Below, in pieces: positions 49,616-54,057 of a stretch of DNA of 64,000 nt (its first letter is position 1; the number at the start of each line of letters is the position of its first letter). The stretch covers positions 1 to 64,000 of the forward strand of contig CABYZW010000004.1 in the NCBI GenBank assembly GCA_902523615.1, in the 5' to 3' direction. Made by a program: the position numbers and the translations under genes. The notes under the pieces are model-generated. The model was given only the letters and a program-made list of their open reading frames with translations. It did no database searches and had not been told where the DNA came from. Origin of the DNA: an uncultured Pelagibacteraceae bacterium (GTDB taxonomy: Bacteria > Pseudomonadota > Alphaproteobacteria > Pelagibacterales > Pelagibacteraceae).

Positions 49616-50578
49616 ATGAAAATATTAGTGATTCAAAATAGGATGGGTATAGGAGATACTGTTATTTTTTTACCTTTTATAGAGGCTTTGTCAAAAAAAT
49701 TTAATTCCCCTGTAAGTTTACTCGTTAAAGAAAATTCAAAAGCTGAACAATATCTATATCAGACTAAATATATTGATCAAATTCTACTTCTGGAAAGAGA
49801 TAAAACTACTCAAAAGAGACACAATGGATTTTTTGGAATTTTTAATTTGATCAAAGATTTAAAAAAATATAATTTTGACAAAATTTTCATTTTTAATTCC
49901 TCAATTAGATTCCGTTTAATTGCAAAATTATCAGGCATAGCGGATGTATATCAATACCCATTATTTAAAAAATCAAAACAACACATAGTTGATACTCCAA
50001 AAATATTTCTAAAAAATAAATTAAATTTGATTGTAAATAAAGATCCAGAAATACATATCGAAGATGAATTGATTTTAAATTCAAGTAAAAAATTAAATAT
50101 AAATAAAGATGAATTGAATATATTGATGGGAATTGGGGGTTCAGGACCCTCAAAAAGAATTCCATATGATATAATTCTAAGTGTAATAGATAAAATATCT
50201 AAAATTAAAAAGTGTAGGTTTTTTCTTGCTACTGGAAAAGATGAGGAGGAACAATTTATATTAAAAAAAATTGTTGAGTCAAAATTCAAAAGTCTTTGTA
50301 TGCCTTTGGATGATTATTCAATAAAAGATACTCTGCCTATAATAAAAAATTGTAATTTGGCAATTTGTAATGACTCTAGTTTTAGTCATTTATCAGCCGC
50401 TTTGGGCATTAAAACTATTACTCTAATGGCTGATACTCCTTTAATTTATGGTAATTACAATTCTAAAATGTTTCCAGTAATTCCAGATGGTGAGACAACA
50501 GTCTCTCACAACACTCAGGGTAAAGAAAAAATCAATCCACAAAAAATTTTTGAAAAAATTATTGAGATAATTAATTAA
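49616..50578 (+). CDS. Glycosyltransferase family 9 (heptosyltransferase-like)
   Basis: MKILVIQNRMGIGDTVIFLPFIEAL, ICNDSSFSHLSAALGIKTITLMADTP. Confidence 0.85.
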   Translation: MKILVIQNRMGIGDTVIFLPFIEALSKKFNSPVSLLVKENSKAEQYLYQTKYIDQILLLERDKTTQKRHNGFFGIFNLIKDLKKYNFDKIFIFNSSIRFRLIAKLSGIADVYQYPLFKKSKQHIVDTPKIFLKNKLNLIVNKDPEIHIEDELILNSSKKLNINKDELNILMGIGGSGPSKRIPYDIILSVIDKISKIKKCRFFLATGKDEEEQFILKKIVESKFKSLCMPLDDYSIKDTLPIIKNCNLAICNDSSFSHLSAALGIKTITLMADTPLIYGNYNSKMFPVIPDGETTVSHNTQGKEKINPQKIFEKIIEIIN

Positions 50579-51078
50579 GAAATATCTTTTAAAACTATGT
50601 CTTTAGCCTCGTTTACTATTGAGGAAAGTCTAGCAGTCTCTGGTGAAATATCTGGATGAATTTTTTTTTGGATTTTAATATAAGCTTTATTAACATCATC
50701 TTTAGTTATTTTTTTTCTAATATCTAAATTTAAAATTTTATAAGCTTCAGATACAGTTATAGATGTCAAATTATTAGAACTTGTTTGATTAAAAGAAAAT
50801 CTGCCCGATCTTCTTAAAGTTTGAATTAATCTGAAAAGTGAGATCAATTGAAAAATGGACAAGCCTTTCAGTTTCAATAGTGCAATACTTGCGAGGGTTA
50901 ATGGTAGTGTAAGTAAAAATCTCCCTCCAATAGCAAATAAAATAGCTAAAGCTATTAACCCTATAATAATAATTACTCTGAGACCTTTTGATATCTTTTT
51001 AGAGGAAATATTACTGATAATTTTAAGTAAAAAATATAAAATCAATAATACTATTGCAGTATAAATTATTATATTCAT
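50575..51078 (-). CDS. TIM14-like membrane-anchored DnaJ-domain protein
   Basis: N-terminal TMs and C-terminal EAYKILNLDIRKKITKDDVNKAYIKIQKKIHPDISPETARL with HPD. Confidence 0.85.
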   Translation of the reverse strand: MNIIIYTAIVLLILYFLLKIISNISSKKISKGLRVIIIIGLIALAILFAIGGRFLLTLPLTLASIALLKLKGLSIFQLISLFRLIQTLRRSGRFSFNQTSSNNLTSITVSEAYKILNLDIRKKITKDDVNKAYIKIQKKIHPDISPETARLSSIVNEAKDIVLKDIS

Positions 51079-51091
51079 ATATTTCTCAATT

Positions 51092-53188
51092 ATGAAAGTA
51101 CCACAACTTAGAAAAAAAAGAGAAACAAAATCTTGTCACAACATTGAATGGGAGGATAATTATAGCTGGATACATCAAAAAAATATTTTGGAGGTCCTTA
51201 AAGATAAAGATAAACTTAATCCTGAAGTTAAAAAATATCTCATTGAAGAAAATGAATATACGGAGCATCACTTGAAAGATACTCAAAATTTACAAAAAGA
51301 GCTCTTCAACGAAATAAAGGCAAGAATAAAATTAGAAGACGAGTCTCTTCCCTTTAAAGATCATACGTACGAGTATTGGACAAAAACAACTAAAGAGGGT
51401 GATTACTCAATTAAATTAAGAAAAAAAATAATTACTGATGAGATTGAGGAAATTTGGAATGGTGATAAAGAAAAAGAAAAATTAGGTGTAGAATATTTTG
51501 GTATTGGTGATCTTGAAGTTAGTCATAATGATCAATATCTAGGCTATTCACTAGATGTGAAAGGTTCTGAATATTATTCAATTTTTATAAGAGAAATTAA
51601 AAACAATAAGATTATTACAAAAGAGATTAAGGATACATCAGGAGGAATTACATTTAGTTTGGACGATAAATATATCTTTTATTCGAAATTGGATCAAAAC
51701 CATAGAGCGAGAAAAATTTACAGACATAAGATTGGAAATTTCGATAATAGTGACGAATTAATTTTTGAGGAAAAAAGTGATGCATTTTCAGTATCAATTA
51801 GTCTAAGTTCAGACGAAAAATATTATTTCATCTCGAGTTCAGACCATAATACATCAGAACAGTACTACTTTAAAGTTAATGAAAAAAAACCAGAGCCTAA
51901 GCTAATAAGAAAAAGAAAAAAAGGAATATTATACTCAGTCAATTCATGGAATAACCAATTTTATAATCATACAAATGAAGAAGCAGAAGATTTTAAGATT
52001 GATATATCTGAAAGCTTAGAAGATCAGAATTGGAAACCTTTCATACCATCTAAGGAGGAGGTTTTGGTTGGTAACTGTATGTTTTTAAATAATTGGATAA
52101 TAAGATCAGAAACCTCTGATGCCTTGGATAAATTATTTGTAAAAAATCTTATAACTGGGGTAGAGGAAGAATTATTTTTTTCTAATGAGAAAGTTTGTGT
52201 GCCAAATATTTCTTTAAGACAAAAAGATAGAAATACTGACGAAATATATATTGGATATTCCTCACCCAAAACACCCTCTAGAGTATATTTGTACAACCTT
52301 TCTAACAAGTCAAAAAAATTAGTTAAACAACAAGAAATTCCTTCAGGACATAGTTCAGATGATTATATTGTAGAAAGAGTAGAATTCAAATCTCATGATG
52401 GAAGGTTGGTGCCTTTAACAATTACAAGACATAAAAAAACAAAAATAGATGGATCAGCTAATTTATTACTTTATGGATATGGGTCTTATGGAAATTCAAT
52501 GAGTCCAGGATTTTCGTCTACTAGATTAAGTTTAATTAATCGAAATATAATTTGGGTAACAGCCCATATAAGAGGTGGGATGGAAAAAGGCATGAGGTGG
52601 TGGAAAGAAGGAAAGCTAACTAATAAAAAAAATACTTTTGAAGATTACATATATGCAGCGAAATATTTAATTAAAAATAAGTACTCTTCAAAAGGTAAGA
52701 TAATTGGAATGGGTGGTTCTGCAGGAGGGTTACTGATGGGAGCAGTTATAAACAAAGCTCCAGAATTGTTTTTAGGAATTATAATGGCCGTTCCTTTTGT
52801 TGACTCTTTGACAACTAATCTTGATCATTCATTGCCTTTAACAGTAGGTGAATTTGACGAATTTGGAAATGCTAAAGATAACAAGGATCATTTTGAATAT
52901 ATATTTTCTTATGCTCCTTATAATAATATAAGAAAAATGGACTATCCTCATTTATTAATCACAACAAGCTTGAGTGATAATAGAGTATTATTTGATGAAC
53001 CAGTAAAGTTTACTGCAAAATTACGAGACTTTAAGACAGATAATAATTTATTACTTTTAAAAACTGAGATGAATGCTGGTCATGGTGGCAAGTCGGGAAG
53101 GGATGGTGCCATAGAGGAAATTGCCTTTGATTATGCTTTTGCATTAAAAATTTCAAACAAAATTCAATTGTCTAGTCTTGAAAAATAA
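51092..53188 (+). CDS. ptrB: S9 family prolyl oligopeptidase / oligopeptidase B
   Basis: LLLYGYGSYGNSMSPGFSSTRLSLINR, GKIIGMGGSAGGLLMGAVIN (GxSxGG), NAGHGGKSGR. Confidence 0.92.
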   Translation: MKVPQLRKKRETKSCHNIEWEDNYSWIHQKNILEVLKDKDKLNPEVKKYLIEENEYTEHHLKDTQNLQKELFNEIKARIKLEDESLPFKDHTYEYWTKTTKEGDYSIKLRKKIITDEIEEIWNGDKEKEKLGVEYFGIGDLEVSHNDQYLGYSLDVKGSEYYSIFIREIKNNKIITKEIKDTSGGITFSLDDKYIFYSKLDQNHRARKIYRHKIGNFDNSDELIFEEKSDAFSVSISLSSDEKYYFISSSDHNTSEQYYFKVNEKKPEPKLIRKRKKGILYSVNSWNNQFYNHTNEEAEDFKIDISESLEDQNWKPFIPSKEEVLVGNCMFLNNWIIRSETSDALDKLFVKNLITGVEEELFFSNEKVCVPNISLRQKDRNTDEIYIGYSSPKTPSRVYLYNLSNKSKKLVKQQEIPSGHSSDDYIVERVEFKSHDGRLVPLTITRHKKTKIDGSANLLLYGYGSYGNSMSPGFSSTRLSLINRNIIWVTAHIRGGMEKGMRWWKEGKLTNKKNTFEDYIYAAKYLIKNKYSSKGKIIGMGGSAGGLLMGAVINKAPELFLGIIMAVPFVDSLTTNLDHSLPLTVGEFDEFGNAKDNKDHFEYIFSYAPYNNIRKMDYPHLLITTSLSDNRVLFDEPVKFTAKLRDFKTDNNLLLLKTEMNAGHGGKSGRDGAIEEIAFDYAFALKISNKIQLSSLEK

Positions 53189-53204
53189 TAATTAATCCCC
53201 ATAT
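53177..53204 (+). promoter_or_regulatory. Sigma-32 (RpoH) promoter of hsp20, embedded in the 3' end of ptrB
   Basis: CTTGAAA (53177-53183), N13, CCCCATAT (53197-53204): full match to enterobacterial consensus CTTGAAA-N13-CCCCATNT. Confidence 0.8.
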
Positions 53205-53210
53205 GATTCA

Positions 53211-53268
53211 TGTAGGTCGCCTAATGGGGCCTGCACTTAAAACTTGCTTAACAAAGGAGGATATTATG
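53211..53268 (+). promoter_or_regulatory. Candidate ROSE-like RNA thermometer in the hsp20 5' leader
   Basis: 5' hairpin TGTAGGTC-g-CC-TAAT-GG-GGCCTGCA (53211-53235), then CTTGCT-TAACAA-AGGAGG (53243-53260) placing UUGCU opposite the SD as in ROSE elements. Confidence 0.6.
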
Positions 53269-53712
53269 ACAAGTAAGGATTTATCTATATTTAACTCTCT
53301 AAGACCGTTTTCAATAGGTTTCGACGATATGTTTGATCAATTTGAGAACATGCTGGGGAATGGTGCATTAACTATGCAGTCTAATTACCCACCATATAAC
53401 ATTAGAAAAACTGGTAAGGATAACTATGCGATTGAAGTTGCTCTTGCAGGTTTTAACAAAAAAGATGTTGAGGTAGAGTTTGAAGATAATTTGTTAACTG
53501 TAAGAACAAAACAAATTAAAAAAACTGATGACCAAAATGTTGATGGTGAAATAATTCATAAAGGAATTTCTCAACGACAATTTGCAAGATCATTTACAAT
53601 CGCTGACGATGTAAAAGTGAATGATGCCGAGCTTAAAGATGGTCTTTTAACAATATCTTGTGAAAGAATTGTTCCAGAACATAAAAAGAAAAAACTTATT
53701 GATATAAAATAA
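53266..53712 (+). CDS. Small heat shock protein Hsp20 (IbpA-like)
   Basis: Alpha-crystallin domain: YPPYNIRKTGKDNYAIEVALAGFNKKDVEVEFEDNLLTV, QRQFARSFTIADDVKV. Start at ATG 53266 after AAAGGAGG, not 53203. Confidence 0.94.
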   Translation: MTSKDLSIFNSLRPFSIGFDDMFDQFENMLGNGALTMQSNYPPYNIRKTGKDNYAIEVALAGFNKKDVEVEFEDNLLTVRTKQIKKTDDQNVDGEIIHKGISQRQFARSFTIADDVKVNDAELKDGLLTISCERIVPEHKKKKLIDIK

Positions 53713-53720
53713 GTCACCCT

Positions 53721-53755
53721 TACTTGCGGAGACTATTCTTCGCAAGTAATTTTAA
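53721..53755. terminator. Hairpin between convergent hsp20 and lipoprotein genes, possible terminator
   Basis: TACTTGCG (53721-53728) / CGCAAGTA (53741-53748), 12-nt loop, then ATTTT; weak U-tract. Confidence 0.5.
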
Positions 53756-54057
53756 AAACATCCATTTGATACAAATCCAATTACTATCGAATTTGAGTTG
53801 ATTTCAAACCTTCTTTCACAAGGAATCCCATATTTTTTAGTATTATAAACAAATACGAAATTGCCCTTATCATTTTTGTAATCCTCATCTGGTTTTCCTA
53901 AGTCTAACTGTACAACACTTGAGGATTTGCCAATATATTTACTTAATTTCTGATTTTCTTTTTCTACAATAGCATCTGTTTTTTGCTTAATAGTCTGACA
54001 TCCGGATAGTATAATCATTACAATAAAGCTTGTTAAAAAAATTTTTAAATTTTTCAT
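53752..54057 (-). CDS. Small lipoprotein (SmpA/OmlA-like fold suspected)
   Basis: Lipobox ILSGCQT; KYIGKSSSVVQLDLGKPDEDYKNDKGNFVFVYNTK. Confidence 0.6.
   Translation of the reverse strand: MKNLKIFLTSFIVMIILSGCQTIKQKTDAIVEKENQKLSKYIGKSSSVVQLDLGKPDEDYKNDKGNFVFVYNTKKYGIPCERRFEINSNSIVIGFVSNGCF

Follow-up and report, generated by a model that had tools for sequence, protein, structure and literature searches.

The leader of E. coli ibpA is a known RNA thermometer. Few cells in the ocean are more abundant than SAR11 bacteria, the subject of this analysis, whose repertoire of regulators is small. Two-hairpin ROSE-like elements of Pseudomonas ibpA have been demonstrated to act as thermometers, so that such a form can work (PMC3669281). 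For SAR11, the main text of a 2019 survey refers to “a possible RNA thermometer” in strain HIMB5, giving neither gene nor structure (PMC6429828), and the leader discussed below may therefore have been seen before. A survey of RNAs in P. ubique makes no mention of an hsp20 leader (PMC2704228).

We analyzed a window of 64,000 nucleotides from a SAR11 (Pelagibacteraceae-type) genome that is 67% complete. With a probability of roughly 0.78, the leader of its hsp20 gene acts on translation as a ROSE-like thermometer that has been pared down to two hairpins.

The hsp20 gene (53266..53712, forward strand) encodes a small heat shock protein of 148 amino acids (Pfam HSP20, 6.8e-17). It is the only small heat shock gene detected in this genome, and SAR11 relatives carry one copy per genome wherever the gene is found. 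The start codon (ATG 53266), with AAAGGAGG upstream of it, and the Shine-Dalgarno (SD) sequence are as the initial annotation gave them, both in sequence and in coordinates, which re-reading confirmed. A longer hsp20 starting at the in-frame ATG 53203 was rejected. That ATG overlaps the promoter's -10 element and is unconserved, and the leaders of relatives have indels of 1-2 nucleotides; the leader is therefore non-coding and translation starts at ATG 53266.

A sigma-32 (RpoH)-type promoter, CTTGAAA-N14-CCCATAT (53177..53204, forward strand), exactly matches the sigma-32 consensus; any other sigma-32-type match in the window has two or more mismatches. Both the promoter and its spacing recur in the hsp20 loci of relatives. 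Transcription is expected, from the promoter's position, to start near 53210, at the base of the hairpin I stem, which predicts a leader of about 55 nucleotides (53210-53265). The -35 region (53177-53188) falls within Leu-Glu-Lys-stop, the final codons of a prolyl oligopeptidase gene located upstream. Downstream of hsp20, a terminator-like inverted repeat, ACTTGCG/CGCAAGT (53713-53750), separates the gene from a small convergent gene at 53752-54057. One gene away from hsp20, positions 50575-51078 of the reverse strand encode a membrane protein whose C-terminal domain is DnaJ-like, with a score of 25.3 bits, slightly under the Pfam cut-off of 27.8.

The two elements that had been proposed for this leader, at 53211-53235 and 53243-53260, are indeed the hairpins of its minimum-free-energy fold. 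The folding energy of -17.5 kcal/mol (z = -2.87) was equalled by 1 of 200 shuffled sequences, and CTTGCTTAACAAAGGAGG occurs once in the window, where 0.05 occurrences are expected with up to 3 mismatches. We aligned 57 distinct SAR11 leaders, including the window's own, from 80 related hsp20 loci. RNAalifold recovered both hairpins from this alignment unprompted, and 97.9% of its pairing cells are compatible with pairing, versus 93.0% when shuffled and 44-67% with slid partners. The two elements are conserved at this position before hsp20, and the first of them covaries.

Hairpin I (53211..53235, forward strand) has a GC-rich stem with a bulged G53219 and a UAAU loop, as seen in the leader's minimum-free-energy fold and in the pattern of covariation. 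Compensatory changes among SAR11 relatives, which the initial annotation had suggested as a check, are strong in this hairpin but never occur in the core of hairpin II. In an alignment of 56 more diverse leaders, 7 of the 9 pairs of hairpin I exhibit changes on both sides, and the covariation score is 0.445, as compared with 0.236 (sd 0.014) for shuffled alignments. There is strong comparative evidence that hairpin I exists as an RNA structure. A role as a terminator is ruled out by the absence of a U run after the stem.

Hairpin II consists of an anti-SD, CUUGCUU (53243..53249, forward strand), which is invariant in the 57 leaders and contains the motif U(U/C)GCU, and the SD, AAGGAGG (53254..53260, forward strand), which forms the 3′ arm in the RNAalifold consensus as well as in the minimum-free-energy fold. 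The resulting CUUGCU/AAAGGAGG hairpin covers the SD. RNAalifold also pairs C53243 with G53259 below the core and U53249 with A53254 on the loop side. Across SAR11 leaders ACUUGCU and AAGGAG are nearly invariant, and the hairpin II core lacks covariation in the 57-leader set because neither arm varies. In its lower stem, near the start codon, an A-U pair is replaced by U-A in 20 of the 57 leaders, but the exchange tracks one group and may represent few events.

The anti-SD and SD could be aligned in more than one register, with G53246 either bulged or opposite G53257. The initial annotation favored a symmetric UUGCU/AGGA pairing with a G-G pair. This arrangement is the minimum-free-energy structure of the window sequence and is possible there, but the consensus of the relatives has a bulged G53246. 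In the window's family, the bulged-G register (UUGCU against the first AGGA, 5:4) is 65% paired at positions -1 to -8, as opposed to 49% for the symmetric register and 41-47% for other slides. As a general rule the symmetric register was rejected, given these percentages and the UCGCU and GGAGU/GGAGA variants, which disrupt its pairing. ROSE has this same 5:4 geometry, and in its NMR structure G83 contacts G94 (PMC9450479). In a sister family, it is the second AGGA to which the anti-SD UCGCU pairs; Rfam ROSE has the same arrangement.

The leader has no match in Rfam at the curated cut-off. The best of four weak matches in the region is to Rfam ROSE, at 17.8 bits versus a gathering cut-off of 45, and aligns the leader over its full length with 30 middle model positions deleted. 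A search of the order with RF00435 (ROSE) found matches in none of 97 genomes at E-values up to 1, and a ROSE_3 search of the order gave nothing convincing. ROSE_3 (RF02523, gathering cut-off 43 bits) misses the window, and the leader of one relative (L063) scores 21.6 bits. The proposal of a ROSE-like leader before hsp20 thus holds with regard to conservation, covariation, the U(U/C)GCU motif and the heat-shock-type promoter, but not with regard to the Rfam ROSE cut-off. In the broad sense of the term, the leader is ROSE-like: U(U/C)GCU is imperfectly paired with the SD, a small heat shock gene follows and there is a stable 5′ hairpin. However, it has two hairpins where RF00435 has three to four. 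It also differs from fourU thermometers, in which four U nucleotides lie opposite the SD, since its anti-SD is CUUGCUU. As its score of 17.8 bits falls short of the cut-off of 45, we classify the leader as a two-hairpin, ROSE-like variant outside of the Rfam families.

A covariance model (R1) built from SAR11 leaders only matches 182 of 247 genomes in the order, and 132 of the 149 that are near-complete. When the whole class (Alphaproteobacteria) was searched, R1 matched in 12 genomes outside the window's family. In eight of these 12 genomes the match lies directly upstream of an hsp20 gene found by an independent protein search, and the stem sequences differ. A bridging leader (L115), also outside the window's family and before hsp20, is matched by R1 at 3.8e-7 and by Rfam ROSE_3 with an E-value of 0.02 and 28.6 bits. 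For the R1 matches L119, L122, L124, L125 and L126, the protein search found no hsp20. The match in L119 (1501-1564) is a strong GC hairpin that shares the GTCGCCTAATGGGGC core and has a T run behind it, and is probably a terminator. In a sister family of the order (f2; L139-L148), hsp20 leaders appear to have three hairpins; they carry UCGCU, and their SD hairpin is longer. Loss of the middle hairpin in the window's family would be the simplest history, the alternative being a gain in f2.

If the leader is a thermometer, a heat-shock sigma factor promoter would start the mRNA at hairpin I, giving it a stable hairpin at its 5′ end. In hairpin II, the anti-SD ACUUGCU would pair with AAGGAG of the ribosome-binding site, and the G, whether bulged or in a G-G contact, would keep this stem weak. 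The ribosome-binding site would then be covered in a cool cell, while warming would open hairpin II and allow hsp20 to be translated. It is the homologous architecture that suggests this temperature response. In folding models with 45 coding bases included, the mean predicted SD accessibility of the relatives rises from 0.26 at 5 °C to 0.45 at 42 °C. The predicted accessibility in the window sequence has no clear rise with temperature, and varies with the length of coding sequence folded and with the parameter set. For E. coli ibpA, every setting predicts a mostly closed SD whose accessibility increases slightly with temperature.

The anti-SD has another potential partner, the sequence AAGUAAG within hsp20 (53271..53277, forward strand), extending from the last base of codon 2 to the end of codon 4. 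A bistable variant of ROSE is therefore conceivable, although we hold it only tentatively. The anti-SD CUUGCUU would alternate between the SD and codons 2-4 in a two-fold switch rather than simple melting, and the coding sequence would be part of the thermometer and hence synonymously frozen. On this reading, the ribosome-binding site would be either enclosed or freed by the competing helix. When 12-18 coding nucleotides are folded with the leader, the anti-SD/AAGUAAG helix is favored over hairpin II, but the predicted balance between the two folds depends on how much sequence is folded and on which parameters are used. Codons 2-4 (ACA AGT AAG) are almost frozen in relatives, with AGT in 96/96 and AAG in 93/94 sequences, and have the lowest synonymous variation of 90 three-codon runs in hsp20. 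This runs against codon bias: AAG is rare, accounting for 226 of 1837 Lys codons in the window (12%). All of these codon tests were devised after the fold was seen, and on related sequences that are not independent. Measured by anti-SD pairing, no more than 1.2% of synonymous recodings in the window do as well as the native codons, and the figure is 1-6% for most sequences from genera g1, g4, g5 and g6. By contrast, the same recoding test detected no strong pairing in genera g2 and g3, in the sister family or in distant alphaproteobacteria. Changes in these codons mostly preserve pairing (ACG leads to a U-G pair, and Arg AGG retains one), the exceptions being an AAA and an AGA variant, which disrupt the helix. 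Codon 5, by contrast, varies at its third base, which lies beyond the helix. Among 20 further genomes, 19 have AAG and one has the pairing-preserving Arg AGG. The early codons of a neighboring permease gene, used as a control, are conserved too, but with AAA rather than AAG. The codon choice in hsp20 could have another cause, but a constraint on codons 2-4 at the RNA level is likely, judging from these patterns.

It is unlikely that the leader instead mediates autoregulation by binding Hsp20 or another protein, or stabilizes the mRNA with hairpin I as a 5′ cap, with temperature acting via the RpoH promoter only. Such a role would fit with the predicted stability of hairpin I, which greatly exceeds that of hairpin II, with its location at the expected 5′ end, and with the AAC residues of the loop, which are kept in the leaders though they have no role in hairpin II. 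Yet it leaves unexplained both the invariant complementarity of anti-SD and SD and the match to the ROSE architecture. That the complementarity arose by chance in such a short, AT-rich leader is very improbable: although hairpin II is weak by itself and lacks variation in its core pairs, the conservation across genera and the covariation of hairpin I refute this explanation.

If the thermometer reading is correct, SAR11 has a direct, testable temperature sensor on its only small heat shock gene. The cool to warm surface water that SAR11 inhabits is below the temperature range of the ROSE elements studied so far. The leader would also suggest a route by which a multi-hairpin thermometer shrinks in a streamlined genome, and would mean that the Rfam models miss a large branch of ROSE-like leaders.

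Among known systems, the short ROSE-like elements of Pseudomonas ibpA resemble the SAR11 leader in having two hairpins, a leader of about 60 nucleotides, a first hairpin that is stable and GC-rich, a second hairpin in which U(U/C)GCU faces the SD, and a small heat shock gene. In the Pseudomonas elements, G-C pairs flank the core on both sides, whereas the SAR11 leader has a G-C clamp on one side only; the lineage also differs, and coding-region complementarity is not described in the available part of that report (PMC3669281). The nearest short Rfam model is ROSE_3 (RF02523), and the SAR11 leader scores under its cut-off.

The ROSE element of Bradyrhizobium hspA (RF00435) also has a hairpin I of six pairs, a bulged G, two pairs and a four-nucleotide loop, as well as UUGCU opposite AGGA and an alphaproteobacterial small heat shock gene. 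Unlike this element, the SAR11 leader lacks middle hairpins, and its anti-SD is paired to the first AGGA instead of the second. The E. coli ibpA thermometer shares an anti-SD of the U(U/C)GCU type (UCGCU in E. coli), a sigma-32-type promoter and a small heat shock gene, but has more hairpins and is predicted to be closed at any coding length. In the meningococcal fHbp thermosensor, coding sequence likewise helps to control the ribosome-binding site (PMC4999090). The fHbp coding repeats pair with the ribosome-binding site itself, whereas the coding part in SAR11 would pair with the anti-SD (PMC4999090).
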